From Deltaproteobacteria bacterium YD0425bin50 (GTDB taxonomy: Bacteria > Desulfobacterota > Desulfobacteria > Desulfobacterales > YD0425bin50): a stretch of DNA of 33,035 bases. Below, in pieces: positions 5,869-25,005 of the stretch; the first letter of the stretch is position 1; the number at the start of each line of letters is the position of its first letter. Position numbers and translations under genes: made by a program. The stretch covers positions 1-33,035 of the forward strand of contig PDZT01000015.1 of the NCBI GenBank assembly GCA_002753105.1. The letters run 5' to 3'. The notes under the pieces were generated by a model. It saw only the letters and a list, made by a program, of their open reading frames with translations. It did not search any database and was not told the origin of the DNA.

Positions 5869-6015
5869 CTATACTTTTGCATTTTTTTTCTTTTTGACGT
5901 AACTCAAAGTCCAGAATGCTTGATTTTACTGGATTCCCGCTTTCGCGGGAATGACGATCGCTATTTTTGTATAATAAGTCATTTCAATAGGTTATAAAAA
6001 AGTGCAAAAGTATAG
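5869..6015. mobile_element. 147-bp MITE-like element, family B copy 1
   Basis: Ends ctatacttttgcatttttt and aaaaaagtgcaaaagtatag are inverted repeats of about 20 bases with one mismatch. The body holds tccagaatgcttgattttac followed by ggattcccgctttcgcgggaatgac, a REP hairpin. A nearly identical 147-bp copy lies at 17010-17156. Direct repeats ttgttgt flank this copy (5862-5868 and 6016-6022), a likely 7-bp target-site duplication. Confidence 0.85.
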
Positions 6016-8030: not shown

Positions 8031-11000
8031 TTATGCCATTAAATTGACGATACCTTGACCGATTGGACTTGACTTACGATTCGTTCCACTATCCTCATCA
8101 GCTAGTTGATCTGCATTTGTTTGCTGGCGGCTTCCTTTTCGTCTTCGTTCAAAAGCTCCGTTTTGTCCTTGACCTGTATCAGCCATTGCCTGATCAAATT
8201 GTTGAGTGAATTGAACATCCATTTTATCTAACTGAATACCCTGTTGAAGTAGAGCTGTTTTTAAATCAGCCATATATGATACAAGCAAATCACGGGTGCT
8301 CTTTTCTTCTGCAATGATATTGACTTTCATGTGATCATCAATTGTTTCGATTTGCATATGTAATCTTCCAAGATGCGGCGGACTTAACTGAAAACGAATT
8401 TCATTGGCCATAATCGGTACTGCTCTCACTAACTGGCGTTCAATTTGTGAAATAAGTTCCATAGCCAACTGACGATTAAACGCTCTCGTTTCAGGTGTGC
8501 TAATTGAATTTACATCCTCTTTGATTTGTTGAGTATGAGTAATTCCTGCTGATAATTCAGACCTGAATAATTCTTGTTTAGCGCGAATAACTGGTTCTTC
8601 AATTATATTTTTTACGGATGTCAATTTCCCCAATTCTGTGTTTATGGCGCTCATGTCAACATCACTAGACAATTTTGTCTGTGTTTTAAGTGATTGAAAC
8701 AGTTCTGATTCTTTGTTTGTACGTGATGTTTCCAATTCATTTATAGACGAAGCATTGAATCGCTTGGAAAAATCTGTAGATGCGGCTTTTTTCCTTGTAA
8801 CATCCTCAAACGATTGTTGGAACCACATTGGTTCTTTCGTTCCGCCTTGATTATTATTGGTGCCTTGTTCAGAAAAACTTCCAGAAGTGAGGACTTCATT
8901 TTTGGGCTGTTGTGAAATAGAAAACAATGGGCTTTCACTACGAAAAGATGCCAATGATTCCTTTCCTGAAACGATTGCTTGGGTAATCATGGGTTGAACA
9001 GTTTCTATTGGCGTTTGTGCTTGAACTTGACTTACCGGAGCACTTTTTTCAGAGAGTGTTTCAGCTTGAAATTGTTTTTGTCTTCCACCTATATTTTCTA
9101 ACGGATAAGATAGATTATGGTTGTTTTTTACGTATATTTGATTTGCCTCTTGACTTGGAATGGGTGTTTGTTTTGAATACATAGGTTTTTGTATTGCGCT
9201 ATTTTCAACTTGAATTTCAGGTAACTTTACCTCTTCAGTATTCTGAATAGAGTTGTTCGATAACCCAGTTACCATGCTTGGTGTTTTTAAATCTTTTTGT
9301 TGAGTTATGGTTTCAACAGGCCTGAGAACACCATAAGTATCAGCCTGAGCCTGAGCAATAGTATTTATTTGATTTATTATGGATATGATTTTTTCTCCAT
9401 TTATCGGAGAATCCGTTTTTATGGCGTTGCTTTCATCCTTTTTTGTTTCTGTATAAGTAGCTGTTCCTTTATTAATTATATTAGATTTTTCATCCTGTTT
9501 TACATTTAATGAAACAGATTTATCTTGTTTTGGCCACGTATCAGCTACTTGGTTAAATGGATCAGCGCGACCCGAACTATCAGAGACATGTTGGTCTTGA
9601 CTTGAGTCTATTGCCCTTGCTTCTTCACCAATGGGTATAGGAGTTGTATCTTGATCATTGATATTGCCTAACAAGGTTTCTTGTTTCTTTATAGTATGAA
9701 CACCTTGATTTTTGGCTGTTAAACCCACAGATTCACTTTTGGGTTGATCACTTTTGGGTTGAGCATTGTCGATAATAGCATCTGATCTTAATGTCAAATC
9801 ACTCAATGTTGATACTTGGTCTGATGTATTGACTATTTTTTTCTTATCCTGTTTTAACTCTTCAACTAATTGAATTAACTCTTTTTTAATTACAGATATC
9901 TCCTCGGGCAGTTGATTTGCTAATGTAGTTAATGTTTCAAGCGAATTGAGTTTGGTTATTTTTGGATCATTCACTTGAGTCTGTTGTGATTTTATTTCAA
10001 TCTGTTCTGGCATACGAACGAAATCAGTTTCCTTGTAATTTCCAAGCATAGATTTAAGGTTATTTAATTCTAGTATAATCTGTTTTTTTACAGGTAAATC
10101 CAGTTGACTCTGATTTACTGTTTTAGTCATGTTAGCAAAAATGGGTTGCACTTCTTGCATATCTATAGATGGCAATATACTGTCTTTTGGTATCATTGGT
10201 TTTGATATCATGGAGTTACTTTGAGAAGCTAAATCAGATTTAAGGCTTTCAATTCCTTTATTGATTAAATTCAGGATAGGTACATTGTTTTGTTTTGAAG
10301 CTAAAACATCGCCATTTTTTTCTACTGTAGCCAAAGTATTCAAACGAGTTTGTAAATCAATTAACCGTTCATAAAAAATCAAATTAGGATTAGTATTGGA
10401 CATGCTAGTACCTTCGGATACGGAAGATATTGGTTTAATATTTTGACTTGCACTGTTTTTGGAAATAGGATTTTTATCCATTGATTTCAAAATGATATCA
10501 TCTGTTTTGGTCTGAGCATTGACAGGCTTTTGACTTGTTTGGTCATTGGACATGCTAATAGCTTCAGATACGGATGATATAGGTTTTAAATTTTGACCCG
10601 TGCTGTTTTTATTTGTTGCGATTTCTGAATGCTGAATTGATCCAGATGGCACTTTTTTTTGGTCTTGCCTTGTATCATTCACTGTGACTGTCTTGGCAAT
10701 GTTATTAGGTATAACTGAAGCTGTCTGTGCTTTAATACGTTCAACACCTTGAAACAATAAGGGCTTGATCACTGGGTTTGTGATGGTGCTTTGGTCTAAT
10801 ATATCATTTAACTTTTTAACTAATTGATCCAAAGGTGAATTTTCATTTAATGGTGCTGCATTATGTATATCTGTTACCTGCGTTGTTCGTGCGTCATTAT
10901 TTTTTATCGGTTCTATGTATTTCGAATTGGGAGATGCTAGTTTTTCAGTATTCGTATCTTCCGGTTTTTGTATCTCAAAACGCTGAATCCGTTGATGGTT

Positions 11001-12197
11001 TGGTTTTGTTAAAAATGTAACATCTGAAGCAATTGTGGTTTGAGGAAATATTTCTAGTGTATTGATATCCGCATTAGAATTTTTTGCATTAATCAGTTGT
11101 GGTGTAATAAAAGACTGGGCAGCGATGGTATCCAATAAGCTACTATTCAATGGGCCAACGTTTTTTGTATTTAGATCATCTTGTTTTTTGACTGTTTTTT
11201 CAATCTGATTTTCCTGAGGTGTAGTCGAATTTTTTAGTTGTGTTCCAATTGTGGTGACCGTAGATGCCACATGAATATATGCATAAATCTGATGAGTAGT
11301 GTTTTTATTTTCAACAAGCTGATTTACTGGGAAAGATTTTTTATTCATCCCAAGCATGAGTTGTGGAGTTATTCCATGAGTATCATCTGGTGTAAAAGGG
11401 GTCATCGAGTCAAATTCCGAAGATAAATTTAATTGCATGGGATTCATTGTGTTACCTTGCCCCATAATATTGAATATAAAATCGTTGATTTGTCGATATG
11501 CGGAACTCAGATCAACCATAGGCATGTTCAATGGAGTAATAGTAGATGGGTCTTCGCTATCTTTATCCTTGTCTTGAATTTTTTCAGTTAATGCTGAGTT
11601 TATGGAGAATTGAGCTTTTTGCCCCCCTTTATTTTTGAAAGAAAGAATTATTTCATCCGATACCTCTTGATCTATGCCCATTCGAGACAACAATTCCTTC
11701 AACATGTGGACTGCATTGGGATCAGAAAAAACAGATTGAACATCGGATTGTAAAAATGCACTAGGAAAAAAATTCCCATGGGCAACCTGAGTCCTATGAA
11801 TGGACATAGCCATAACCTGAATCGATTCTGTGATGGTTGAGGCAGTTTTGTTTTCATCAATTGTAGCGTTTTGTGTTGTTTCTTTTTTTATTGTTTGCGC
11901 TGTATCTATAGTCTTCGCTGTATTTATACTCTGCGCTGTATCTATGGTTTGAGTTTTATCTATAGTCGATTTTTTTGCTGCAACACGTAGATTTTGTTTT
12001 GTATCAACAGTTGCAGCCTGATTTGTTTTTTCCTGTTTTATTCCAAGGGATTGCACCATATTATCCATAATACGCGCAAAAGAATGCGCTGTTTTGTTTT
12101 TTGGGGAATAAAATAAGCTTCCTTTTAGAGCTGAAGGTGATTTCTCTGTATTTTTCAGTTCAAACAAATTTCCCGGAATTGTGCCTTGAAAAAGCAT
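8031..12197 (-). CDS. fliK: Very large flagellar hook-length control protein FliK
   Basis: FliK sets hook length and switches the flagellar export gate to filament subunits. The C-terminal Flg_hook domain is clear at about residues 1240-1325: NEIRFQLSPPHLGRLHMQIE, then LLVSYMADLKTALLQQGIQLDKMDV. The other 1200 residues are low-complexity, rich in Gln, Asn, Ser, Thr and Lys, as in FliK ruler regions. At 1388 aa it is two to three times the usual length (about 400-600). Short internal repeats occur: 6-residue units (TIDTAQ, SINTAK) near residues 80-105, and a 65-bp direct repeat (KPISSVSE) spaced exactly 50 codons. The ATG follows an aagggggc ribosome site. A sigma-54-type promoter lies 52 bases upstream, and flgD follows. 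Confidence 0.9.
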   Translation of the reverse strand: MLFQGTIPGNLFELKNTEKSPSALKGSLFYSPKNKTAHSFARIMDNMVQSLGIKQEKTNQAATVDTKQNLRVAAKKSTIDKTQTIDTAQSINTAKTIDTAQTIKKETTQNATIDENKTASTITESIQVMAMSIHRTQVAHGNFFPSAFLQSDVQSVFSDPNAVHMLKELLSRMGIDQEVSDEIILSFKNKGGQKAQFSINSALTEKIQDKDKDSEDPSTITPLNMPMVDLSSAYRQINDFIFNIMGQGNTMNPMQLNLSSEFDSMTPFTPDDTHGITPQLMLGMNKKSFPVNQLVENKNTTHQIYAYIHVASTVTTIGTQLKNSTTPQENQIEKTVKKQDDLNTKNVGPLNSSLLDTIAAQSFITPQLINAKNSNADINTLEIFPQTTIASDVTFLTKPNHQRIQRFEIQKPEDTNTEKLASPNSKYIEPIKNNDARTTQVTDIHNAAPLNENSPLDQLVKKLNDILDQSTITNPVIKPLLFQGVERIKAQTASVIPNNIAKTVTVNDTRQDQKKVPSGSIQHSEIATNKNSTGQNLKPISSVSEAISMSNDQTSQKPVNAQTKTDDIILKSMDKNPISKNSASQNIKPISSVSEGTSMSNTNPNLIFYERLIDLQTRLNTLATVEKNGDVLASKQNNVPILNLINKGIESLKSDLASQSNSMISKPMIPKDSILPSIDMQEVQPIFANMTKTVNQSQLDLPVKKQIILELNNLKSMLGNYKETDFVRMPEQIEIKSQQTQVNDPKITKLNSLETLTTLANQLPEEISVIKKELIQLVEELKQDKKKIVNTSDQVSTLSDLTLRSDAIIDNAQPKSDQPKSESVGLTAKNQGVHTIKKQETLLGNINDQDTTPIPIGEEARAIDSSQDQHVSDSSGRADPFNQVADTWPKQDKSVSLNVKQDEKSNIINKGTATYTETKKDESNAIKTDSPINGEKIISIINQINTIAQAQADTYGVLRPVETITQQKDLKTPSMVTGLSNNSIQNTEEVKLPEIQVENSAIQKPMYSKQTPIPSQEANQIYVKNNHNLSYPLENIGGRQKQFQAETLSEKSAPVSQVQAQTPIETVQPMITQAIVSGKESLASFRSESPLFSISQQPKNEVLTSGSFSEQGTNNNQGGTKEPMWFQQSFEDVTRKKAASTDFSKRFNASSINELETSRTNKESELFQSLKTQTKLSSDVDMSAINTELGKLTSVKNIIEEPVIRAKQELFRSELSAGITHTQQIKEDVNSISTPETRAFNRQLAMELISQIERQLVRAVPIMANEIRFQLSPPHLGRLHMQIETIDDHMKVNIIAEEKSTRDLLVSYMADLKTALLQQGIQLDKMDVQFTQQFDQAMADTGQGQNGAFERRRKGSRQQTNADQLADEDSGTNRKSSPIGQGIVNLMA
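10396..10610. repeat. 65-bp direct repeat inside fliK
   Basis: 10396-10460 and 10546-10610 are near-identical 65-bp copies (both start attggacatgcta and end in ctgttttt). The offset is exactly 150 bp, or 50 codons, so it adds a unit in frame. Both code for a KPISSVSE-type segment. Confidence 0.75.
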
Positions 12198-12962: not shown

Positions 12963-15032
12963 ATGTCTATGAATCGATTATCAAGTCTTGCCTTTTTGTT
13001 ATTTTTATTAATCAATTCAAGTTACGTCTTTTCTCAATCTGACTCAACTTCAGAACCTACAAAACTTGATTCAGAATTGAATGAAGCATTCAAGTGGCTC
13101 CAAGTAGAATCAATCACCGAAACCGAGATCGCTACGAAAACGCGGTTGGATGCCGATCTTGCTCCCGGAATGGTAACCGTGCTCACCGGTGAGATACTAG
13201 AAAGAAAAGGATTTAGGACAGTAGGAGAAGCCATGAACTATATTCCCGGTTTTTCGAGCAGTACAGTTTCGACCATCGTGAGAGGAATTGGCGAGATATT
13301 TAATTCTGGAAAGGTCAAACTCCTTTTAAACGATGTCCCAATGAACGAAAACTTAAGCGGAGGATCATCTACACTTTTTATGATTCCGATTCAGCAGGTC
13401 AAAAGGATAGAAATTATCCGCGGACCAGGCTCCGCCATATATGGTAAATGGGCATATTCCGCTGTGATCAACATCGTTACAAAAGATCAGGAAAACTGTA
13501 TCTTTACTCAATATGGGACATTCGATGCATTTTCCATAGGAACGCTTCTTTCTTATAGCCAGCCTCAACAGGATTTTTCGATCAGCCTGAATACTGCTTA
13601 TTGGAAAAGGAATCAGTCAGATATCGTATCTGGTCCAGATGTTTTGTATGGTACGCCAAATGAATCTGTTTCTCTTGCACCAGGTCGGGTTGATGATTCC
13701 ATGAAATCTGGAACAGGTATTTTAAATCTCAATTACAAAGATTTTATTTTGACAGGTCAGTTTACTTCAAAAAAGATGAGCAACCCTTTTGGCTTTTTGG
13801 GCGCTCTCCCCTTGCAAGATGATGAAGATCGGAGTGACATTGAGCAAAATCATTCAGTAAGATTATCGTTGTCTCCTAAACTTACGGATACCCTTGATAT
13901 GAAATTTCATATGGGCTGCAAGGTAAGCATATATGATGAAGACAATGCTTATTTATATCCGCCCGGTTTTAGCATTCCAGATTTGGGCACGTATGAAAAC
14001 GGATGGATAGGCGGGCCTCATTATGAAGAGCGCTCTTTGGACAGCGGATTGGAGCTGCACTGGATAGGATGGAATGATCATCTGCTTATGGCAGGCGGAG
14101 AATATGAACGCATTGACATGATGGATATCTGGGCGAGAAAAAACTATGATCAAGACTATATGCCTCTACCCTCTCCCGAACATTTTACAGGTGAAGGAAA
14201 TTGGATCGATGAAGACAAACGCCGAGGCATTTTTGGGATATTTTTTCAGGATCAGTTCAAAGTTATTGATTCTTTCACGCTTACGGCAGGCTTACGATAT
14301 GATAACTATGATGATACTGCAAATAGACTATCCCCCAGAATCGCAGGTGTTTTTCATCCTTTTGAACAACATATTTTCAAAATTCAATATGCTGAGTCCT
14401 TCCGTCCCCCCACATTCATGGAAATGTATTCAAAAAATAACCCTGTGGTATCTGGAAATCCTGACATTGTTCCCGAAGTCATTAAGACGAGTGAACTTGG
14501 ATATATCTTCAGGATTGTTTCTTTTGTTTCAAAATTAAACCTCTTTTATTCGGAGCTTAAAAAATCGATCGTTCAAGACGGCTTCCAATATTCTAACAGT
14601 GGAGGTGCTCAAATAAAAGGAGGGGAGATTGAAATCAAATGGAAAATTCTTCACGGTTTGAGCTTGGATGGAAATCTGTCTTATGTAAAAACCAAAGACA
14701 AGGATACGGGAGAAGAAATAGCCGGTTCAGCCAATTGGATAGGTAATACGGGTATTACATACGAACCCGTGCAGGATTATCTCCTATCGCTTCACTATTT
14801 TTATTCAGGAAAGCGCAATCGGAGTCCAGAGGATGCCAGAGGCAAATTAGACAGCTATGATATGGTCAGGTTATCCGCCAGCGCTGAAAATTTTTTGATC
14901 AAAGGCCTTACCTTAAGACTAGCCGCAAACAATATTTTTGACAAAAACATCCGCTTTCCATCTTCTGATTATCCGGAGGATTATCCAACAGTAGGATATG
15001 AGATGTGGGGGCTGGTCTCTTATGAATTCTAA
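12963..15032 (+). CDS. TonB-dependent outer-membrane receptor
   Basis: A 689-aa outer-membrane beta-barrel receptor. A signal peptide (SSLAFLLFLLINSSYVFS) ends near residue 24. The plug domain covers about 65-174: MVTVLTGEILERKGFRTVGEAMNYIPG, then VKRIEIIRGPGSAIYGKWAYSAVINIVTK-type strand motif. The barrel holds the C-terminal signature FRPPTFMEMYSKNNP...GNPDIVPEV (about 480-505) and the chain ends in F after YEF, as outer-membrane insertion needs. ATG 12963 lies close (3 bases) after aggaga; ATG 12969 has better spacing and may be the real start. It heads a block with two periplasmic binding proteins and signalling genes, which suggests ligand uptake or sensing. Ligand unknown; no typical TonB box seen. 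Confidence 0.92.
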   Translation: MSMNRLSSLAFLLFLLINSSYVFSQSDSTSEPTKLDSELNEAFKWLQVESITETEIATKTRLDADLAPGMVTVLTGEILERKGFRTVGEAMNYIPGFSSSTVSTIVRGIGEIFNSGKVKLLLNDVPMNENLSGGSSTLFMIPIQQVKRIEIIRGPGSAIYGKWAYSAVINIVTKDQENCIFTQYGTFDAFSIGTLLSYSQPQQDFSISLNTAYWKRNQSDIVSGPDVLYGTPNESVSLAPGRVDDSMKSGTGILNLNYKDFILTGQFTSKKMSNPFGFLGALPLQDDEDRSDIEQNHSVRLSLSPKLTDTLDMKFHMGCKVSIYDEDNAYLYPPGFSIPDLGTYENGWIGGPHYEERSLDSGLELHWIGWNDHLLMAGGEYERIDMMDIWARKNYDQDYMPLPSPEHFTGEGNWIDEDKRRGIFGIFFQDQFKVIDSFTLTAGLRYDNYDDTANRLSPRIAGVFHPFEQHIFKIQYAESFRPPTFMEMYSKNNPVVSGNPDIVPEVIKTSELGYIFRIVSFVSKLNLFYSELKKSIVQDGFQYSNSGGAQIKGGEIEIKWKILHGLSLDGNLSYVKTKDKDTGEEIAGSANWIGNTGITYEPVQDYLLSLHYFYSGKRNRSPEDARGKLDSYDMVRLSASAENFLIKGLTLRLAANNIFDKNIRFPSSDYPEDYPTVGYEMWGLVSYEF

Positions 15033-15061
15033 GCAGGTTTGCTTCTAAAAGAGATATTTTT

Positions 15062-15949
15062 ATGCGAGCGCATCTCAATCGTATCCATAATAATATTTCT
15101 CCTACCTATCTTATGGGTAAGAGATTCACATCTTACATGTGGAAATTTCTGTTTATCATTATTATATTATTTTTTAAATCTGTTTGCTCGTATGCTGCTG
15201 ATCCTGATACTAAAATTATGATTTTTTTTTTCAGTTCTGAAACGAATATCAATAATTTTAAATCCTTGAAGACAGAATTTGATAAATACATAACTGCCCT
15301 TGGCCCCTATGAGTTTCAGCCATTTAGCGATAGAATTATATTTGAGGAACACATCAAAACTAAAAAGAATTATTTGTTATTCCTTTCGAGCTGGCACTAT
15401 CAAAAGATATACAAAAGTTATCTGCTTAGTCCTGTATTAGTGGGGAGCAAAAATAATACTGCTACTCAAAAGCGAGCTATCGTTGTTAAAGCAGGAACCA
15501 GCCTATCGAATGCTATTCGTTTCCACGACATTGAACCGATTGCTTCAGCTAGCAGTGTTGAGCACACCTATCATTACCTTATCGACATAATAAAAGATGA
15601 GCAGTCTCTGGAATCAACTCGGATTATAGCTGTACCCAAGGATATTGATGCATTAATGGCAGTGGGATTCGGCATGTCTAAATCCGCTCTGGTCACTGCA
15701 TATTCACTCAATACGCTTAAAACCGTAAATCCATTTCTTTTTAACAGTTTAAAAATATTGACTGAAGGCAAGGAATCCTTATTGCTAATTGCCGCTGTTC
15801 CGAAACCGTTTGCTCATCAATCGGAGCAAGCGATTTATATCATCCAGCAAATGGCGGCTGACCCTAATGGTGTAAAAATTCTTAAAATGTTTAATATTGA
15901 AGGATGGAAACAGATTGAAGCAACTGATATTTCCAAATTAGAAGGTTAA
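15062..15949 (+). CDS. Periplasmic substrate-binding protein, PhnD-like
   Basis: A 295-aa exported protein that looks like a type 2 periplasmic binding protein of the phosphate/phosphonate (PhnD-like) group. Support is the pattern of IIAVPKDIDALMAVGFGMSKSALVT (about 193-217), the later KILTEGKESLLLIAAVPK, and overall length. A signal peptide is clear at WKFLFIIIILFFKSVCSYAA, starting at Met 26. The longest frame starts at ATG 15062 after aaagagat; ATG 15137 would give a normal signal peptide but lacks a good ribosome site. It follows the TonB receptor by 29 bases and precedes a second binding protein by 16, so all three are probably one operon. No permease or ATPase of an ABC transporter is present. 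Specificity unknown. Confidence 0.6.
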   Translation: MRAHLNRIHNNISPTYLMGKRFTSYMWKFLFIIIILFFKSVCSYAADPDTKIMIFFFSSETNINNFKSLKTEFDKYITALGPYEFQPFSDRIIFEEHIKTKKNYLLFLSSWHYQKIYKSYLLSPVLVGSKNNTATQKRAIVVKAGTSLSNAIRFHDIEPIASASSVEHTYHYLIDIIKDEQSLESTRIIAVPKDIDALMAVGFGMSKSALVTAYSLNTLKTVNPFLFNSLKILTEGKESLLLIAAVPKPFAHQSEQAIYIIQQMAADPNGVKILKMFNIEGWKQIEATDISKLEG

Positions 15950-15965
15950 CATGTAAGATAAGATC

Positions 15966-16913
15966 ATGAGAATAGTTAAAATAAATCGGAAAAAAAATTT
16001 AAAATTAGCAGTAGCGTCAACAACTTTTGTATGCCTTTTATCGCTTTCCTTAATGACATGGAGCAATACCATTCCAAAAGTATTAGTGTTGAATTCCGAT
16101 GCAACAGTTGATAAATACACTATTGCTCAGGATGAATTCAGCAAGGAACTGCCTTGTTTTATTCAAAAAGTTGATTTGTCTCAAGATAAAAAAATCAAAG
16201 ATATTGAAAAAATAATTGAAAACAATTCTGTCAGTATCATCTATTGCATAGGCGTAAAAGCCTGTATGTCCTTACACCACTATAATCGTCAGGAATATAT
16301 CATATTTTCGTCCATTTTAAACTCATTTAGACTTCCGATGAGGTCAAAGACATACGGAATCTCAAACGAGATACTTTCAGGCATACAGATCACGCTTTTC
16401 CGTTACATCTTTCCTAAGATCAATAACATTGGCGTCTTATACAGTGAGAAATATAATCAAGAATGGTTTGATCAAGTGCAACTAGAAGCAGACAGATTGG
16501 GCATAAAAGTAATGGGCAGTCCTGTTTCGGAAAGTAAAAAGACCCTTTCGGAATTAAAAAATCTGTTATCGCAGATTCATGCTTTCTGGCTCATATCTGA
16601 TCCAATTATTACGCCTAACAAAGAATCCCTGTTAAAGATCATCTCTACATGCGATTCTGTGAAGATACCAATATTTTCCTATAATCAAATTTTTGCCGAA
16701 CTCGGCGTTACTATGACTGTGTCTGTAGATGATCAAACCATTGGCAGGCAGGCGGCTGATATTGCAAAACAGATCGTTTTAAGTAAAAAAATCGACGAAC
16801 ATGTACAATTTCCAGCCGGTTCGCATATTGTTTTAAATCTGAAGAAGGTTAATGCATACTCTCTCGAATATAATAAAGATGCTTTAAGCTCTATCAACAC
16901 GATTATTGAATAA
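15966..16913 (+). CDS. Periplasmic binding protein, ABC_sub_bind (PF04392)-like
   Basis: A 315-aa type 1 periplasmic binding protein. An N-terminal hydrophobic stretch (LAVASTTFVCLLSLSLMTW, about 14-32) acts as signal or anchor. The middle shows the family features: YCIGVKACMS, then PKINNIGVLYSEKYNQEWFDQVQLEA and WLISDPIITPNKESLLKI; the C-terminal lobe has IPIFSYNQIFAELGVTMTVSVDDQTIGRQAADIAKQI, close to the PF04392 pattern. It lies 16 bases after the PhnD-like gene. Family members are often found beside TonB receptors and sensor proteins without transporter genes, so a sensing role with the SiaA-like phosphatase downstream is possible. Ligand unknown. Confidence 0.75.
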   Translation: MRIVKINRKKNLKLAVASTTFVCLLSLSLMTWSNTIPKVLVLNSDATVDKYTIAQDEFSKELPCFIQKVDLSQDKKIKDIEKIIENNSVSIIYCIGVKACMSLHHYNRQEYIIFSSILNSFRLPMRSKTYGISNEILSGIQITLFRYIFPKINNIGVLYSEKYNQEWFDQVQLEADRLGIKVMGSPVSESKKTLSELKNLLSQIHAFWLISDPIITPNKESLLKIISTCDSVKIPIFSYNQIFAELGVTMTVSVDDQTIGRQAADIAKQIVLSKKIDEHVQFPAGSHIVLNLKKVNAYSLEYNKDALSSINTIIE

Positions 16914-17009
16914 ACACAATCCCCATGAACTGTTATTCACAAATCGAGACAGCGAATCAGTCGGTCGGGGTTTGATGTTTTTAATTTTTTAAGATGTTGA
17001 TGGAGATTA
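16914..17009. other. Intergenic, no gene seen
   Basis: Between the second binding protein and the 147-bp repeat. A weak pairing (aatcccc with ggggttt, followed by gatgttttt) could be a terminator but has a long loop. It may separate the receptor operon from the phosphatase operon. Confidence 0.3.
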
Positions 17010-17156
17010 CTATAGTTTTGCATTTTTTGTCATTCCCACGAAAGTGGGAATCCAGAATGCTTGATTTTACTGGATTCCCGCTTTCGCGGGAATAACGATC
17101 GCTATTTTTGTATAATAAGTCATTTCAATAGGTTATAAAAAAGTGCAAAAGTATAG
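17010..17156. mobile_element. 147-bp MITE-like element, family B copy 2
   Basis: Same length and nearly the same sequence as 5869-6015: ends ctatagttttgcatttttt and aaaaaagtgcaaaagtatag, REP hairpins cattcccacgaaagtgggaa and ttcccgctttcgcgggaa inside. In this copy the left hairpin is intact; in the other it has decayed. No clear target-site duplication here. It lies in the leader region of the SiaA-like gene. Confidence 0.85.
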
Positions 17157-17331
17157 GGGTTAATATAATGATGAATTTGCTATTGCGATTTTTAACCTGT
17201 TCAACTATAAATATGACGATTATCCTTTACGTTAGATATTGAACGAAGAATTATCGTCTCACAGTAGATGATATCATTTTAAGTTTGGACAATTTCCTTA
17301 CTGTTGCGACCATACAAAGAATGATTACATA

Positions 17332-19056
17332 ATGGGTGTTATTAAAAAGCATAAATCAAGAATACGATGGGGCATCAAATCAAAATTGATGAGCATGTTG
17401 ACCATCTCATTATCCACTGTAGTCATTATTTTAACCTATAATCATATTTCCTCACAAAAAAAAGTGTTGGAATACGAATTAACTAAACGTCATCAATTGA
17501 TGAAGGAAAATTTGATTGAACGTGGAAAAAGCAATATTATCAGCCTTACAGAGCAAATCGAAATTGATATATCCGCGTTTAATTTTTCTCATGTTATTGA
17601 AATACTAAATCACACAGTTTTGAACTCCAAGGATATAAAAGCAGCAATATTGGTCAATTTACAACATATTGTTATTGTTCATACCCAACATCCAAAAATG
17701 ATCGACAAAGAATTATCCGACGATATTACCTTAGATGCATTAAAATTGAATAATGTACATCATATCGAATATGTTATCGATTCTGAAAATGTCATAGAAA
17801 TTCAATCCCCTATTCAGATTAGCCAAGAACCATGGGGTGTATTACGTCTCGTCTATTCCTTACAGTCCTTAGAATCAGAAAGAATACTATCCACTCAAAT
17901 GATCAATGATCAGCTCAAAAAAATGATTGTGAATACGGCATTAACATCATTAGCCTGTATGCTATTTACCTTGTTATTTTCTGTAATTTTAGCCAATAAG
18001 TTAACAACTCCGCTTATTCTTTTATCTGAATTAGCCAAAAAACTTTCTCAAAAGAATTTTCAAATAGAAGAGTGTAAACCTGTTATAACATCAAGCAATG
18101 ATGAAATTGGCGTTTTAACAGATCGTTTTTTTGAAATGAGTTATGAATTAAAAAAAACCTATAATGAATTAGCATGGTACAATAGAACATTAGAACAAAA
18201 AGTAAAAGAGAGAACAGTAGCGCTTAATCAAAAAAATGTTGAACTCAATGAAACACTTCAAAAAATTGAAAAAATTAATAACGGACTCACAGAAAATATA
18301 AAATATGCAAAAATTATTCAACAATCTCTATTACCCAATCTGACACGAATCAAATTGTTTTTACCAAACAGTTTTATGATCTGGTTGCCAAGAGATATTG
18401 TTGGCGGAGATATCTACTATATTGATTCATTTATGGATGGAATTATTATTGCGGTATTTGATTGCACGGGGCATGGAGTTTCAGGGGCGTTTATGACGAT
18501 GCTGGCCTCTACTGCTATTCGTCAAATTGTAAGAAATGAAGCATGTTATGATCCTTCTGAAGTTTTAAAAAGATTAAACCACATTATGAAAACAACGCTT
18601 CAACAAGATAAAGATTTTGTTTCCTCAGATGATGGATTGGATGCAGCCATTTGTCTTTATATGCCAAATAAAAAAAAGCTCTTCTTTTCTGGGGCAAAAT
18701 TGCCGTTAATATATTGTAATGAATCTGGTATCCAAATCATCAAAGGAGATAAACATAATATTGGTTATAAAAAATCTGATTTGAATTTTTATTTTACTTG
18801 TCATGAAATTGATCTGTCAAAACGAATGATTTTCTATTTATGTACAGACGGATATTCTGATCAGGTTGGTGGGAATAAAGGGTATATTTTTAGTAATACA
18901 CGTTTACATGAGTTGATTAGTTTGATCCAAAGTAAGCCGTTGTATTATCAAGGTGAAAAATTTCTCGAAGTTCATAAAAATTACAAGGGAAGTTTTAAAC
19001 AAACCGATGACATAACCGTTATCGCGTTTGCTCATTATGATACTATTGAATTATAG
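17332..19056 (+). CDS. SiaA-like membrane PP2C (SpoIIE) phosphatase with HAMP domain
   Basis: A 574-aa inner-membrane phosphatase. TM1 at about 20-37, a periplasmic sensor region at 38-197, TM2 at about 198-219, HAMP at 220-273, a coiled coil at 275-325, and a SpoIIE-type PP2C domain at 345-570. Metal-binding acidic residues are visible: D360 in VGGDIYY, D377 in FDCTGHGVSG, D506 in TDGYSD, and D559/D560 in QTDDITV. In the Pseudomonas SiaABCD system, SiaA of this architecture dephosphorylates SiaC while SiaB phosphorylates it. A SiaB-like gene follows here. The periplasmic part could read the binding proteins coded upstream. The ATG has no strong ribosome site, and a MITE lies 175 bases upstream, so its promoter is unclear. 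Confidence 0.88.
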   Translation: MGVIKKHKSRIRWGIKSKLMSMLTISLSTVVIILTYNHISSQKKVLEYELTKRHQLMKENLIERGKSNIISLTEQIEIDISAFNFSHVIEILNHTVLNSKDIKAAILVNLQHIVIVHTQHPKMIDKELSDDITLDALKLNNVHHIEYVIDSENVIEIQSPIQISQEPWGVLRLVYSLQSLESERILSTQMINDQLKKMIVNTALTSLACMLFTLLFSVILANKLTTPLILLSELAKKLSQKNFQIEECKPVITSSNDEIGVLTDRFFEMSYELKKTYNELAWYNRTLEQKVKERTVALNQKNVELNETLQKIEKINNGLTENIKYAKIIQQSLLPNLTRIKLFLPNSFMIWLPRDIVGGDIYYIDSFMDGIIIAVFDCTGHGVSGAFMTMLASTAIRQIVRNEACYDPSEVLKRLNHIMKTTLQQDKDFVSSDDGLDAAICLYMPNKKKLFFSGAKLPLIYCNESGIQIIKGDKHNIGYKKSDLNFYFTCHEIDLSKRMIFYLCTDGYSDQVGGNKGYIFSNTRLHELISLIQSKPLYYQGEKFLEVHKNYKGSFKQTDDITVIAFAHYDTIEL

Positions 19057-19059
19057 TAA

Positions 19060-19090
19060 ATTTTCAAATTTTCGATTTTCGATTTTCGAT
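19060..19090. repeat. Short 7-bp tandem repeats
   Basis: attttcg occurs three times in a row at 19068-19088, after a related attttca. It lies in the short gap between the SiaA-like and SiaB-like genes, similar in period to the 7-bp tract at 7974. Confidence 0.7.
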
Positions 19091-19133
19091 CTGTAAAGTT
19101 AAAAATTATTTGATATTATTCAGGAATATTATT

Positions 19134-19718
19134 ATGCTAAATGATTTATGTGTATTTCAAAAAAATCTAAAAAATAAAGGTGTATTTTTTGCTTTTAGTG
19201 GACCTTTGTCTCAACAGGTAATCATTGATATAAGCAATATTATTAAAAAACGTATCACTATGGAGCATGAATCCACTTATACCAATTTACGAGTTTTAAG
19301 TATTGTGATCGAACTCGCCCAAAACATTGCAAAGTATTCTTCAGAAACCATTTTCGATGAAACTACCCCAAACATAAAAGAAAATTTTCGTTGTGGTATT
19401 ATTTTAATTGGGAAAAAAGATAATGAATACTTTGTAGTCAGTGGTAATAATATTCAGAACCAAAAAATTGAACCTCTATCATCAAGCCTAAATAGCTTGC
19501 TTCAAATGAACAAAGAAAGTTTAAAACAATTTTATAAAGAGCAACGAAGAAAAGGACCTTCGATGGTTGGAAGATTGGGTGCTGGTTTGGGATTTATTGA
19601 AATCGCAAGAAAAGTGAATAGACCATTTGAATTCGCGTTTAATACAATTGATGAGGATACATCCTTCTTTTCGTTTACTGCAACCGTTTGCCCTGTTACA
19701 TCTGGGGCAGAAATATAG
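19134..19718 (+). CDS. SiaB-like protein kinase (DUF6272 family)
   Basis: I start at ATG 19134, with cagga 8 bases upstream; the frame opens at a TTG at 19110. The 194-aa product has a GHKL-like ATP-binding fold: VIELAQNIAKYS (58-69, with E60 and N64 as the N-box), a hydrophobic strand pair near 87-104, and the glycine motif GRLGAGLGFIEIARK (146-160). In SiaB-family kinases these positions bind ATP-Mg, and the partner is SiaC, phosphorylated on Thr. The gene follows the SiaA-like phosphatase by 77 bases, the expected order. No SiaC-like (DUF1987) gene or SiaD diguanylate cyclase lies in the window, so the substrate here is open. Confidence 0.8.
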   Translation: MLNDLCVFQKNLKNKGVFFAFSGPLSQQVIIDISNIIKKRITMEHESTYTNLRVLSIVIELAQNIAKYSSETIFDETTPNIKENFRCGIILIGKKDNEYFVVSGNNIQNQKIEPLSSSLNSLLQMNKESLKQFYKEQRRKGPSMVGRLGAGLGFIEIARKVNRPFEFAFNTIDEDTSFFSFTATVCPVTSGAEI

Positions 19719-19759
19719 TCAGTTGACATTATAGAAGTTCATGAGGAGAACCCAAAAAA

Positions 19760-21118
19760 GTGAATCCTGTCCAAGATAACTCCATATTTTCAAAAGAAGA
19801 ACAAACCTTAGATATTGGGAAAGAAATATGTTTAAATCCACCTGCTTATGAAAAAATGATTGATGAATATGGAAATTTGTACAATGAATACAAAAAGCTT
19901 TTCAAACATTTTAAAAAATTAATCAAATTAAGTGATCTGCTGCAAAATGAGCTGAAACAGGCAAGAGATTCTCAAAAACAACTCAATCTCAAACTCAAAG
20001 AATCAAATGACCAATTAACAGAATTAAATTCAAAGCTAGAATATGCAAATATCCAGTTAAGCAAACGTCAACATTTCATTGTTAAACTCATCAATGACTT
20101 ATCCAAAATCCGGTTTTCAGGCGACCGTCATGCCATCAGAAATTTTATTCAACGAATTTTTGAAAACGAAAAAAATATACTGATAGGCAATATATCTCAG
20201 CTTGTATATCTAATATCTCAACTGCTAATCAAACAAAAAGCAGATCATGAATTATCGCTTTTCCAAGAGGCTTGTCAATCGTTTGGGTTGACTCCTGAAT
20301 CATTTTCCAATCCCAAATTAATTGAAAATAAACTCCATCGAATTGTTATCAAAAACCCGGTTGAACTTCACGTAGCAGATGTGGATAAACAAGAAGTTAA
20401 ATCCAAATTTTTTGGAAAAATTTTTTCAAAAGATATTTATCTCAATGATGCCTATTTAAAGTACAAAGAAACTCAAAAAAAATATCAGGCAAATGAAGCC
20501 GCTGAAGTACTTTGGCAGTATGATCCGTTTAGTTTATTTTATGCTTTAATGGCAATTCAGGAAATTATTCAGGAAGTAAATAAGCGCTTTCAAACATACG
20601 ACAATATCCGTTTTTTTAATGAGGTTCTCTTTTCTGAAGCCGTTGTTCAAGCTAAAGAACAGGCTATTTATGAAAAAAAATGTCAAAGCGATTTTAATTT
20701 TGATTTCGAGTTTAACCCAGTTCTTACGACTCAGGAAGATGCCTTGATCTATATGTTTAGGGATATATTTTACAATTCAATTGATGCGAAAGCGAGCATG
20801 ATAAAACTTGTCTGCAAACGGCCTACTCTTGAAATAGATATGCCCTATTTGCACATGTTTAATTTTGATATTTATCCTTCATTATACATATGTGTTGAAG
20901 ATAATGGTAGTGGGATTTCACCTGATAAAGCGAAGCAACTGAATGATTATCTGAATGGCTCCGAATATGAAGAGCATGTGTTATCCACAAAAGAAAAGGG
21001 TGGACTTGGTACAAAAAATCTTCGTGAATTTTTGCGGTTACATAGAGGAAAATGTCATTATGAAAGCGTACCGCAAAATACAAAAATTCATATTTTCTTC
21101 GAAAGGTTAGAAATTTGA
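19760..21118 (+). CDS. Coiled-coil protein with C-terminal GHKL ATPase domain
   Basis: A 452-aa soluble protein starting at GTG 19760 after gaggag. Residues about 40-120 form a long coiled coil. A helical region of unknown fold fills 120-320. The end is a GHKL ATPase: YMFRDIFYNSIDAKAS (331-346, N339), DNGSGIS (381-387) and KGGLGTKNL (413-421). There is no recognisable HisKA phosphoacceptor (no H-E/D-x-x-x-P box), so it is not a standard histidine kinase. It follows the SiaB-like gene by 41 bases and precedes a histidine kinase by 59. It may be a kinase or switch partner in the same pathway. Middle-domain function is unknown to me. Confidence 0.7.
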   Translation: MNPVQDNSIFSKEEQTLDIGKEICLNPPAYEKMIDEYGNLYNEYKKLFKHFKKLIKLSDLLQNELKQARDSQKQLNLKLKESNDQLTELNSKLEYANIQLSKRQHFIVKLINDLSKIRFSGDRHAIRNFIQRIFENEKNILIGNISQLVYLISQLLIKQKADHELSLFQEACQSFGLTPESFSNPKLIENKLHRIVIKNPVELHVADVDKQEVKSKFFGKIFSKDIYLNDAYLKYKETQKKYQANEAAEVLWQYDPFSLFYALMAIQEIIQEVNKRFQTYDNIRFFNEVLFSEAVVQAKEQAIYEKKCQSDFNFDFEFNPVLTTQEDALIYMFRDIFYNSIDAKASMIKLVCKRPTLEIDMPYLHMFNFDIYPSLYICVEDNGSGISPDKAKQLNDYLNGSEYEEHVLSTKEKGGLGTKNLREFLRLHRGKCHYESVPQNTKIHIFFERLEI

Positions 21119-21177
21119 AGCAGATGAATAGCATCTGCACCCAAATGATATTTACCATTTAATCAAGAAGTATTCGA

Positions 21178-22911
21178 ATGAAAAATTATTTTCAATTTTT
21201 AAAAGATATCTATTTTTTCAGTTCATTAACAGATGAAGAAATTAAAAAAATATTCAATTCCTGTTATGAAGAAAAATACAATACATCAGAAGTTATATTC
21301 AATGAGGGGTCTTTGGGGACAAAATTTTTCATTGTTTTAGATGGCGAACTCGAAGTATGGAAAAATTATAAAACAACAGGCGAGCAGTTATTAAGAACAT
21401 TGCAAGTAGGTGAAACATTTGGAGAAATTGCCCTAATTGATAAACTCCCACGAAGTGCAACCGTTGTTGCCAAAACTACGACTATACTTCTTTCGATCAA
21501 TCGAGATGACTTTAACAAACTGATTTCAGAAAACAATTCAATATTTCTTTCAATAATGCAGGCACTTTCCAAAAGTATTCGCAGAAGTACTGGTGATTTG
21601 GTTGAGGAACTCAAAAAAAAGAATGATTATTTGAATGAACTGATCAAACAGCTTTTGTTTGAAATTGAACATCGAAAAAAAATAGAAGCTGCTTTACGAG
21701 TATCCGAAGAAAAATACCGAAACATTTTTGAGAACGCGATAGAAGGGATTTTTCAAATTTCTATTGACGGACAATTTATTCATGTGAATAGGTCTATGGC
21801 AACCATGTTGGGTTATGACTCTACAGAGGCGCTTGTTGCGAGTCAGATCAATATGTTCACACACTGTTTTACCAGTTTCGAAACAAGTCAACTTTTTTGT
21901 GAAATACTTCAAACCATTGGTCAGGTTGTTGATTTTGAAACTCAAGGACTTCGCAAGGATGGTAGTATGTTTTACGCATCACTTTCTGCACGTAGTCAAA
22001 AAGATATGAACGGTAACATTCTTTTTTATGAAGGCGCTTTTGTTGATATAACGCTTCGTAAGCAAAAAGAAATTGCAGAAAGAGAGCGTGAGCATGCAGA
22101 GGAAGAGAATCTGTACCTCATAGAACTACAACGTAAAAAAACAGAATTTTTTTCAATCATTTCTCATGAACTCAGAACCCCACTTACATCAATTCTCGGT
22201 TTTGCAAGACTTATTCATAAAGATTTTTATGAACGCTTCATGCCAATACTTACCCAAACTCCTAAATTGACAGGGAAAGCCAATAAAATCGTACAGAATC
22301 TGGAAATCATTGTCCAAGAAGGAATTCGGCTGACTCGTCTGATCAATGATTTACTGGATTATACAAAAATAGAAGCAGGAAAAATTGAATTTTGTGATTC
22401 AGTTTTTCGTGTTGCAGAAGTACTTGAACAGGCAGTTGAACTGATTCGTGGTGAATTTTCATTAAAACCAAACGTTGATTTGCTGGTGTCAATTAAATCT
22501 CCAGATTTAAAGGTTAATGCAGACCCGGACAGGTTAATTCAAGTCCTGATCAATTTGTTAAACAATGCTGCAAAATTTACAGAACAAGGGTGTGTAGAAG
22601 TCACTCTGGAAAATGACGTTACAGGTCATTATGTTCGTATTAGCGTTAAGGATACAGGCTCTGGAATACCTGAGGAGCATATAAATAAAATTTTTGATAC
22701 ATTTCATCAGGTACTCAAAAGAAACAGCGTTTCAGAAATCAGAAAAATCACTGGTAAACAGCAGGGAACTGGTTTAGGTCTTTTTATCTGTAAACAAATT
22801 ATTGATCATTATCATGGAGAAATTTGGGTTGAATCTGTATTTGGCAAAGGGAGTACCTTTATTTTTATTCTGCCCAAGTATATTGATTTTCAAGAACATA
22901 TAGTAGAGTAA
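21178..22911 (+). CDS. Histidine kinase with cNMP-binding and PAS domains
   Basis: A 577-aa cytosolic kinase with no membrane segment. A cyclic-nucleotide-binding domain covers 1-135, with the phosphate-binding cassette FGEIALIDKLPRSATVVA (81-98; E83, R92 intact). A PAS/PAC pair lies at about 175-295 (YRNIFENAIEGIFQIS). HisKA follows with FFSIISHELRTPLTS (H330), then HATPase: NLLNNAAKFTE (459-469), DTGSGIPEE (492-500), GTGLGLFICKQ (530-540). No receiver domain is attached and no response regulator lies beside it. The intact cassette suggests cAMP or cGMP can bind. It is 10 bases from the next gene, so the two are probably cotranslated. Confidence 0.92.
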   Translation: MKNYFQFLKDIYFFSSLTDEEIKKIFNSCYEEKYNTSEVIFNEGSLGTKFFIVLDGELEVWKNYKTTGEQLLRTLQVGETFGEIALIDKLPRSATVVAKTTTILLSINRDDFNKLISENNSIFLSIMQALSKSIRRSTGDLVEELKKKNDYLNELIKQLLFEIEHRKKIEAALRVSEEKYRNIFENAIEGIFQISIDGQFIHVNRSMATMLGYDSTEALVASQINMFTHCFTSFETSQLFCEILQTIGQVVDFETQGLRKDGSMFYASLSARSQKDMNGNILFYEGAFVDITLRKQKEIAEREREHAEEENLYLIELQRKKTEFFSIISHELRTPLTSILGFARLIHKDFYERFMPILTQTPKLTGKANKIVQNLEIIVQEGIRLTRLINDLLDYTKIEAGKIEFCDSVFRVAEVLEQAVELIRGEFSLKPNVDLLVSIKSPDLKVNADPDRLIQVLINLLNNAAKFTEQGCVEVTLENDVTGHYVRISVKDTGSGIPEEHINKIFDTFHQVLKRNSVSEIRKITGKQQGTGLGLFICKQIIDHYHGEIWVESVFGKGSTFIFILPKYIDFQEHIVE

Positions 22912-22921
22912 AGACTAAACA

Positions 22922-23704
22922 ATGATGTGGGTCGCTGGATGTGATGTTGGATCATTAACCGCAAAAGCCGTTATTTTAGAAGATAAGAAAATTATTGCAG
23001 GTGAATGGATTCGTGTGGCATCTAACCCAGTAATATCTGCTCAGAAGGTGATTCAACAAGCATTATCCAAAGCAAGGCTATCTATGGATAGCATCGTCTG
23101 TTGTTGTACAACAGGCTATGGACGAACAGAAATTCCTTTTGCATCCTTGAATATGAGTGAAATTTCCTGTCATGGTATGGGGGCTTTTTTTCTTGATAAA
23201 CAGATACGCACAGTGATTGATATGGGGGGGCAGGATTGTAAAGTGATTGCTTTGGATGATCATGGTTATGTTTCACAGTTTTCGATGAACGATAAATGTG
23301 CCGCAGGAACAGGCAGGAGTCTTGAGATGTTGTCAGATTCTTTAGGTATTGAGTTTGAACAGTTAGGAGAAATTTCCTTAAAGTCAAGACATCCGGTCCC
23401 ATTAACAAATAAATGTACTATCTATATGGAACTTGAGGTAATGTCTTATGTATATGAAAAGAAAAAATTAAAAGACATTGCAGCAGGTATTACTTTGGCA
23501 TTAGCCAGACGTGTTGCCCAGCTTGCGTCATCGATACCTTTAAACACTCAAATTGCTTTTACCGGCGGTGTATCCAAAAACACCGCTGTGGTTAAACATC
23601 TTGAAAGTTTGCTTGATATTTCATTTACCAAACTCCCGTTTGATCCTCAACTTATTGGTGCGTTAGGTGCAGCGGTTTTTGCGTTGGCTAATACACAAGG
23701 ATAA
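22922..23704 (+). CDS. CoA-substrate-specific enzyme activase (BcrAD/BadFG/HgdC type)
   Basis: A 260-aa ASKHA-fold ATPase that holds a [4Fe-4S] cluster between two subunits and pumps electrons into 2-hydroxyacyl-CoA dehydratases or benzoyl-CoA reductases. Visible features: GCDVGSLTAKAVIL (6-19, phosphate 1), TVIDMGGQDCKVI (97-109), DKCAAGTGRSLEM (124-136) with C126, NKCTIYMELE with C165 and FTGGVSKNT near the end. C126 and C165 are the expected cluster ligands. Length fits the family. It follows the histidine kinase by 10 bases and no dehydratase subunit lies nearby, an odd setting for a metabolic activase. ATG 22922 or 22925 may be used; the ribosome site is poor. Confidence 0.88.
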   Translation: MMWVAGCDVGSLTAKAVILEDKKIIAGEWIRVASNPVISAQKVIQQALSKARLSMDSIVCCCTTGYGRTEIPFASLNMSEISCHGMGAFFLDKQIRTVIDMGGQDCKVIALDDHGYVSQFSMNDKCAAGTGRSLEMLSDSLGIEFEQLGEISLKSRHPVPLTNKCTIYMELEVMSYVYEKKKLKDIAAGITLALARRVAQLASSIPLNTQIAFTGGVSKNTAVVKHLESLLDISFTKLPFDPQLIGALGAAVFALANTQG

Positions 23705-23844: not shown

Positions 23845-25005
23845 TTATCCATTATCTGTCTCGTTTTCTTCATCCTCAGTATCTTCAGTATCAGTTACAT
23901 CAGTTGCATCATCTGTAGTCGTGTCGGTTGTATCAGTTTCAACATCAGTTGCATCATCTGTTGTGGTGTCAGTTGTATCAGTTTCAACCTCAGTTGCATC
24001 GTCTGTAGTCGTGTCGGTTGTATCGGTTTCAACATCAGTTGCATCGTCTGTTGTGGTGTCAGTTGTATCAGTTTCGACATCAGTTGCATCGTCTGTTGAG
24101 GTGTCAGTTGTATCGGTTTCAACATTAGTTGCATCGTCTGTTGTGGTATCGGTTGTATCAGTTTCAACATCAGTTGCATCGTCTGTTGTCGTGTCGGTTG
24201 TATCGGTTTCAACGTCAGTTGCATCATCTGTTGTTGTGTCGGTTGTATCGGTTTCAACGTCAGTTGCATCATCTGTTGTGGTGTCGGTTGTATCGGTTTC
24301 AACATCAGTTGCATCACTATCATCTGTATCGTCGTCTGCATCATCATCCACATCATTGGTTACATCATCATCATCTGCGTCATCTTCAACGTCATCACCC
24401 TCATTTTCAGGATTGTCATATTCACCATCACAGTTCGCATCTTCTTGTCCACATCGATCTTTAAATTTAATTTTTGCAACGCTAACTAGTCCTGCAAATC
24501 CATTATACCAATCTTCTAAATTGAGAGGATTCCCTCCTTTTTCAGTTAAAATCATAGACAACTGATATATTCCCTGTGGAAGGACGTCTGTACCTAAATC
24601 AATATCAACTAAATTTCTGAGTTGATCAGGGATTTCAGTAGCAGCAGCAAGTGGATTTGAAACGATTTGACCATTTGGCATACGAACAACTAAATGCGCA
24701 TCTGCTTCGCCATTCCAAAATGCAGCGAGTGATCTTGGGAACACAAGTCGAACTGTTAACCGATTGCCCGGATACAAAATTGGCCGATTGAATCGAATGA
24801 GCCCGCCTCTTATGTTCAAGGTTTTAAAAACATTTAGTGTCCCGCCTTGGTTGTTGTTTACTGTTTCTTCGGAATGTTGGTTATTCTCAGTATTTTGTGT
24901 TGGATTTTCTGGACGGTTTGGACGATCATTACCTGCCATCGCAATTGAAGATAAAAAAGCAACCATAATAACGAGAATACAGCTTGTCTTAATCATTTTT
25001 TGCAT
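23845..25005 (-). CDS. Secreted protein with Asp/Thr-rich 15-residue tandem repeats
   Basis: A 386-aa exported protein starting at an ATG with a perfect aggagg ribosome site 5 bases away. The signal peptide is about residues 1-24 (CILVIMVAFLSSIAMAG). Residues 55-182 look like a beta-sandwich (NVFKTLNIRGGLIRF, YPGNRLTVRLVFP, DAHLVVRMPNGQIVSN, GFAGLVSVAKIKF). A short Cys-containing linker with Asp clusters (CGQEDANCDGEYDNPE, 185-200) may bind calcium. Residues 231-365 are nine units of DATDVETDTTDTTTD, then an acidic end. No anchor is seen, so it is secreted or periplasmic. The plus-strand frame over the repeats (23762-24565) is its mirror. I do not recognise the family; an acidic surface or mineral-binding role is only a guess. 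Confidence 0.8.
   Translation of the reverse strand: MQKMIKTSCILVIMVAFLSSIAMAGNDRPNRPENPTQNTENNQHSEETVNNNQGGTLNVFKTLNIRGGLIRFNRPILYPGNRLTVRLVFPRSLAAFWNGEADAHLVVRMPNGQIVSNPLAAATEIPDQLRNLVDIDLGTDVLPQGIYQLSMILTEKGGNPLNLEDWYNGFAGLVSVAKIKFKDRCGQEDANCDGEYDNPENEGDDVEDDADDDDVTNDVDDDADDDTDDSDATDVETDTTDTTTDDATDVETDTTDTTTDDATDVETDTTDTTTDDATDVETDTTDTTTDDATNVETDTTDTSTDDATDVETDTTDTTTDDATDVETDTTDTTTDDATEVETDTTDTTTDDATDVETDTTDTTTDDATDVTDTEDTEDEENETDNG
23911..24315 (-). repeat. Nine 45-bp in-frame tandem repeats
   Basis: Exactly nine 45-bp units (405 bp) code DATDVETDTTDTTTD with a few changes (DATN, DATE, TSTD). Unit length is a multiple of three, so unit gain or loss keeps the frame. Silent third-base differences between units (gtcgtg/gtggtg, atc/gtc) show they are not all recent copies. 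Confidence 0.9.

Follow-up and report, generated by a model that had tools for sequence, protein, structure and literature searches.

What is established about the SiaABCD system comes from Pseudomonas aeruginosa, where its one output is cyclic di-GMP (c-di-GMP). In this species SiaC binds the diguanylate cyclase SiaD via two stalk motifs, with S50/Q54 and S82/Q86 as the important residues, and phosphorylation of SiaC at T68 prevents the binding (PMC8457831). For the kinase SiaB, Glu61 is predicted to be catalytic (PMC7647112). Here we describe a block of seven genes in a 33,035 nt stretch from Deltaproteobacteria bacterium YD0425bin50 (PDZT01000015.1; hereafter the window), which is one entire contig of an assembly of 4.97 Mb in 589 contigs (~75% complete). 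The block encodes a TonB receptor, two binding proteins (BP1 and BP2), a SiaA-like phosphatase, a SiaB-family kinase, a GHKL protein and a further sensor kinase. Judging from the sequence, we lean towards the reading that it forms one signalling line, running from the receptor, BP1 and BP2 to the sensor of SiaA, from there to the SiaA/SiaB pair, and via a SiaC acting in trans to the GHKL kinase.

All seven genes lie on the plus strand between 12963 and 22911. Their coordinates agree with the earlier placement, and Pfam as well as NCBIfam support the domain names given in the first-pass annotation. The features, including the gene that follows the block, are:

12963..15032, plus strand, TonB-dependent outer-membrane receptor with plug and beta-barrel (PF00593 4e-50, PF07715 1e-15)
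15062..15949, plus strand, BP1, a divergent PF12974 (phosphonate/AioX-type) periplasmic binding protein, whose relatives reach PF12974
15966..16913, plus strand, BP2, a PF04392 periplasmic binding protein (PF04392 2.5e-20)
17029..17096, no strand, palindromic repeat resembling a miniature inverted-repeat transposable element, with 27-nt arms that are 89% complementary, in the gap 5' of the SiaA-like gene
17332..19056, plus strand, SiaA-type sensor phosphatase (SpoIIE/PP2C 1.7e-21)
19110..19718, plus strand, SiaB-family protein kinase (PF19788/DUF6272; NF038262)
19760..21118, plus strand, stalk-GHKL kinase with SiaC-docking stalk, helical region and HATPase_c (6e-8)
21178..22911, plus strand, cNMP-binding-PAS-HisKA-HATPase_c sensor kinase (Pfam domains), its membership in the system being unproven
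22922..23704, plus strand, BadF/BadG-type (acyl-CoA dehydratase) activase (PF01869 1.2e-52; TIGR00241 above cut-off)

The GHKL protein had been called an orphan, a view that has to be given up. Its residues 1-80 (...YKKLFKHFKKLIKLSDLLQNEL...) are a SiaC-docking stalk as in SiaD, with the motif KLSDLLQ at residues 56-62. S58-D59-x-x-Q62 occupies the place of S82-D83-x-x-Q86 of SiaD, so that the S82/Q86 contacts are kept as S58/Q62. The final stalk profile was built from 18 other stalks over 82 residues with the window protein left out; it replaced an earlier seed of 95 residues that also caught HAMP/HisKA coiled coils. It finds the GHKL protein at 5.5e-13, with 48.4 bits against at most 16.6 in 2000 shuffles. 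With the window row included, the best natural solved match of the profile is SiaD in the SiaC-SiaD crystal 7e6g (7.5e-4, aligned on the motif), while the repeats of a designed coiled coil give it a higher score. In the SiaB-linked loci examined, every one of the 33 open reading frames (ORFs) with a stalk lies less than 5 kb from SiaB. Moreover, among more than 1,700 ORFs, including those of the BP1 loci, exclusively SiaB-linked proteins pass 1e-9 with the stalk profile; the SD..Q motif occurs in 23 of 1706 other ORFs.

The domains found on 32 stalk proteins are HATPase_c (12), class III cyclase (11), GGDEF (8), CheW (3) and HD (1). Since the GHKL protein carries the docking stalk, we regard it as the output of the block. 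According to Pfam it has HATPase_c and no GGDEF domain, and thus the output differs from the diguanylate cyclase SiaD. Receiver-GHKL proteins from the same order, taken to be Desulfobacterales, have a related catalytic part; in the window the stalk takes the place of the receiver. The predicted structure, which is of low confidence, has a long helix (residues 40-116) and ends in an ATPase fold resembling that of histidine kinases. An invariant His124 in 'RHAIRN' was considered as phospho-acceptor H-box and is not claimed as such, as it precedes the ATPase domain by ~200 residues. We found no description of non-GGDEF outputs of SiaC in the open-access literature. Two architectures stand out beside SiaB or fused to it. 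A stalk is joined to a class III adenylate/guanylate cyclase at L058:8712-9698 and L050:9222-10688, the latter also bearing GGDEF, and at L078:7991-10984 a hybrid histidine kinase that starts with a stalk ends in a SiaB-family domain.

In front of this output lie the SiaA-like phosphatase and SiaB. The best solved match of the SiaA-like protein in phmmer is the PP2C domain of P. aeruginosa SiaA (6k4e, 7.8e-46), and the predicted structure (mean pLDDT 76) superimposes on it with a TM-score of 0.89 and 2.5 A. The SiaA model NF038263 matches residues 190-566 with 258 bits against an equivalog cut-off of 700, covering profile positions 302-655 only. The metal-binding Asp residues of the PP2C domain are intact (D360, D377, D506, D559 and D560, invariant across nine relatives). 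SiaB reaches 169 bits with the family model NF038262 (cut-off 85) and stays below the strict equivalog NF038264 (106 vs 225 bits). Its E68/Q71/N72 (E..QN box) and its GAGLG box are invariant, and Glu61 of Pseudomonas SiaB should fall in this E..QN box. An in-frame ATG at 19134 suits the family start better than position 19110 and is the likely start.

The first-pass annotation had noted the lack of SiaC and proposed to search the genome for it. The lack holds for the window, not for the genome: the search returned two SiaC genes (PF09345), one on C35 and one on C220. On C35 the order is SiaB-SiaC-stalk hybrid histidine kinase, and the source genome holds two SiaB, two SiaC and two stalk proteins in total. 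On C220, SiaC is directly followed by BP1-BP2, a pair that runs off the contig and leaves BP2 truncated. Both SiaC proteins keep YFNSSSSK at the phospho-site, with Ser where Pseudomonas has Thr68. A SiaC remnant hidden in the gaps of the block was considered and dropped, as the gaps around SiaB and the GHKL gene measure merely 41-59 nt. Because the stalk has been retained on the GHKL protein, the simplest reading is that SiaC is supplied to the window switch in trans. That the C220 copy is the partner is a guess, prompted by its BP1-BP2 neighbours and by the equal numbers of SiaC and stalk proteins, two each, in a genome that is incomplete.

The C35 unit also suggests another arrangement, in which the window would be the sensing arm of a shared switch: its SiaA/SiaB would control the SiaC that switches the C35 hybrid histidine kinase, and the GHKL protein would be a vestigial or minor target. 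Indeed no SiaA is visible on C35, where the contig begins 41 nt before SiaB, and among the SiaA-like genes found in the source genome that of the window alone has a periplasmic sensor. However, the window has a SiaB and a stalk protein of its own, the second SiaC adjoins BP1-BP2 on C220, and other PP2C proteins (C386, C389, C335) could serve C35. We thus regard a shared switch as unlikely, if still the most serious competitor. A separate siaABCD operon that accounts for the pair would have spoken against the first-pass reading, and this is seen only in part: the C35 genes are a second SiaB-SiaC-stalk kinase unit elsewhere in the genome, but they have their own output and do not explain the window pair.

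The input side begins with the sensor of the SiaA-like protein. The layout is a transmembrane helix, a single-cache periplasmic domain (~residues 31-199), a second transmembrane helix, a HAMP-like/coiled-coil linker and PP2C. The sensor profile finds no relative at sequence level among solved structures, and the match to a known fold came solely from the fold search, in which the sensor part of the predicted structure aligns with the WalK ectodomain 4ywz (TM-score 0.71, 138 alignment columns). sCache_3_2 is touched in 4 of 11 sensor relatives. A kinase on C269 matches the window SiaA over its residues 6-307 (6e-52), which comprise the sensor, the membrane and the HAMP-like portions, and continues into HisKA. 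Hence one genome wires the same input cassette to a phosphatase at one place and to a kinase at another. Across all loci the sensor is mostly attached to histidine kinases, followed by methyl-accepting chemotaxis proteins (MCP), PP2C, class III cyclases, GGDEF and HD-GYP. In a tree of 81 sensor domains, built by a quick method, PP2C output needs seven changes, at least three of which are forced by well-supported branches. None of the 24 PP2C proteins from loci selected by SiaB carries the window-type sensor, which therefore goes with BP1 and not with SiaB.

BP1 itself has no Pfam match, but PF12974 is reached above cut-off by its close relatives (1.5e-6, 2.8e-7), and it is therefore taken as a divergent phosphonate/AioX-type binding protein. 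A BP1 profile gave nothing significant against the PDB, and the match to AioX is weak (E 2.3). Of the specific TonB equivalog models listed from NCBIfam, none reaches its cut-off with the TonB receptor. The source genome contains five BP1 genes, in the window, on C241 (BP1-BP2-TonB), C220, C143 (TonB-TonB-BP1-BP2) and C269 (TonB-BP2-BP1-kinase). A BP1 scan of 84,980 named species genomes yielded 80 loci, in Desulfobacterota, Planctomycetota, Verrucomicrobiota, Methylococcales, Campylobacterota, Nitrospirota, Nitrospinota, Acidobacteriota and others. Together with the window genome these make 81 places, 41 of them near contig ends. Desulfonema magnum, a cultured relative, also bears BP1-BP2 cassettes. 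Gene labels in this survey stem from profiles built in this analysis and not from curated models, except for the Pfam and NCBIfam calls cited.

BP2 lies at most two genes from BP1 in 75 of the 81 places; within four genes of BP1, a TonB receptor gene is found in 58, a window-type sensor in 55 and, by a motif test, an ABC (ATP-binding cassette) ATPase in none. As these loci had been selected by BP1, co-occurrence was checked independently in the order, over 242 genomes. Of these, 23 gave strong sensor matches and 21 had BP1, with 20 shared against 2.0 expected (hypergeometric 4e-25, a figure inflated by uncorrected kinship). In these genomes, 17 of 43 sensor genes lie less than 6 kb from BP1. 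Taken together, it is well supported that TonB receptor, BP1, BP2 and one cache-type sensor domain form a recurring input cassette in many phyla, for which we found no description in the open-access literature. The link between receptor, binding proteins and periplasmic sensor of SiaA, as first proposed for the window, is thereby supported, the neighbourhood being conserved in many phyla.

Two loci combine the cassette with the Sia genes. L104, which is recorded as 'Bacterium UASB270' and which we take to be of the genus Vecturithrix, has BP1-BP2-TonB-SiaA-SiaB-SiaC in a single gene run. This run supports the view that the binding proteins report to SiaA. In Magnetobacterium casense (L156) the order is HD-GYP sensor-SiaA-SiaB-SiaC-stalk kinase-BP1. 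A possible parallel coupling to PP2C was seen in Methylococcales (L123, L126, L145 and L147), in which TonB-BP1-BP2-hybrid kinase is followed by a separate PP2C protein of ~515 aa and a protein of ~140 aa.

One could also take TonB-BP1-BP2 for an ordinary uptake operon that came to lie upstream of an unrelated SiaA/SiaB pair by chance. The long gap with its repeat between the halves would fit, and so would the BP1-BP2 pairs on C241 and C143, which have no adjoining sensor in the stretch examined. But no permease ATPase is near any of the 81 BP1 genes, sensor and BP1 co-occur far beyond expectation, and the same cassette accompanies a kinase on C269 and SiaA-SiaB-SiaC in Vecturithrix. Chance neighbourhood is hence rather improbable. 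Least probable of all is a derivative in which SiaB acts without SiaC and directly phosphorylates either the GHKL protein or some other STAS-like partner: SiaC is missing in cis, and L058 and L086 likewise pair SiaB with a stalk output and have no SiaC inside 3 kb, but the stalk retains the SD..Q residues that contact SiaC and the genome still carries two SiaC genes.

In the signalling line that we favour, the TonB receptor would admit a compound to the periplasm for binding by BP1 and/or BP2. As there is no ABC permease, the SiaA-like phosphatase may sense the loaded binding proteins as co-ligands through its single-cache domain. We infer their binding to this sensor from the conserved gene order and from precedents such as AioX-AioS and other receptors activated by solute-binding proteins. 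Liganded SiaA would then dephosphorylate SiaC, from C220 and/or C35, at the Ser that matches T68 of Pseudomonas SiaC, and SiaB would phosphorylate it. Unphosphorylated SiaC is expected to dock on the SD..Q motif of the GHKL stalk and to stabilise a dimer, which would switch on the histidine-kinase-like enzyme much as SiaC acts on the diguanylate cyclase SiaD. Activation rather than inhibition by SiaC is presumed here, and so is the substrate of the GHKL protein.

Several observations weigh against this line. The complete order of seven genes was seen in no other genome surveyed, and SiaC is absent in cis, while 49 of 56 SiaB places have it less than 3 kb away. The input genes are parted from SiaA by 418 nt with a repeat element. 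Moreover 26 of the 43 sensor genes in the order are without BP1 inside 6 kb, and the window sensor forms a long branch in the sensor tree and may hence have diverged. The model of the GHKL protein is of low confidence (predicted TM-score 0.39). Finally, a GHKL relative at L191 with no SiaB nearby has an N-terminus that is weakly stalk-like (2.5e-4, no SD..Q), so that the GHKL family may have had some of the coiled coil from its ancestor onwards.

Turning to the locus as a whole, the gaps between the seven genes measure 29, 16, 418, 53, 41 and 59 nt in 5' to 3' direction, in agreement with the short gaps described first, apart from the one before the phosphatase. The element in that gap is a 68-nt palindrome; 45 matches are listed genome-wide, many of them 97-99% identical at full length. 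In the window, copies are located at 17029-17096 and 5910-5961. Promoter and terminator scans performed no better than on shuffles. As stated before, the block contains no SiaC, SiaD, ABC permease or response regulator.

The first-pass annotation had placed two extra ATPases in the output layer. This stands for the GHKL protein owing to its stalk, not for the cNMP-PAS kinase, which was rejected as a conserved partner because it has no close full-length relative among the 242 genomes. The kinase and the activase are tied to the block through strand and short gaps only, a doubtful link; the activase, an eighth gene on the same strand that starts 10 nt past the kinase, is probably not part of the switch. 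Overall, the input half of the first reading is well supported, whereas the output half is to be revised, by what the sequence suggests, towards a SiaC stalk and a SiaC in trans. Apart from the block, the minus strand of the window encodes an apparently secreted protein of 386 aa with an Asp/Thr-rich repeat (DDATDVETDTTDTTT) across its C-terminal half (23845-25005) and a protein of 1388 aa that resembles a flagellar hook-length (FliK-type) protein in its C-terminal sequence (8031-12197).

The locus is of interest because both halves generalise beyond the window. Since both recur in many bacteria, they point to a design that extends beyond the single system known from Pseudomonas. Tentatively, and with somewhat less confidence than for the line itself, we propose that two general adaptors meet here. 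One would be the cassette of TonB receptor and two binding proteins, which uses one cache-type sensor and any output (kinase, chemoreceptor, cyclase or phosphatase). The other would be SiaC with its stalk, a portable partner switch for diguanylate cyclases, histidine kinases, class III nucleotide cyclases, CheW- or HD-domain proteins and the GHKL kinase; SiaC from one locus could then serve another in trans. If the stalk reading is true, histidine kinases and class III cyclases of many bacteria are under the direct control of a Ser/Thr partner switch, which links phosphatase/kinase switches to two-component signalling. The cassette, in turn, suggests that many periplasmic binding proteins without an assigned role, now classed with transporters, are co-receptors in signalling and receive their ligands from TonB receptors.

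Compared with SiaABCD of P. aeruginosa (PMC7647112, PMC8457831), the genome shares the SiaA-type PP2C, the SiaB-family kinase, an output with stalk motif and SiaC homologues. In contrast, the window has another periplasmic sensor domain, no SiaC in cis, a GHKL kinase instead of a diguanylate cyclase as output, and a TonB receptor with two binding proteins in front. With AioXSR and other receptors activated by solute-binding proteins (PMC5908839, PMC9602780) it has in common that BP1 belongs to the broad PF12974 class of the PhnD-like AioX and that the gene next to BP1 encodes a cache-type membrane sensor, with no permease present. It differs by having two binding proteins and a TonB receptor and by a receptor that is a phosphatase, BP1 being only weakly similar to AioX. 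An ABC importer would comprise the permease and ATPase genes which BP1 and BP2 of the window lack. The receiver-GHKL proteins of the order (L190, L192) share the helical-GHKL catalytic region with up to 43% identity, but carry a receiver domain where the window protein has the SiaC stalk. Closest on the input side are the TonB-BP1-BP2-sensor histidine kinase cassettes of Planctomycetota, Methylococcales, Campylobacterota, Nitrospirota and others, which have receptor, binding proteins and sensor in common with the window; their output is HisKA/receiver, MCP, GGDEF or cyclase, that of the window PP2C.

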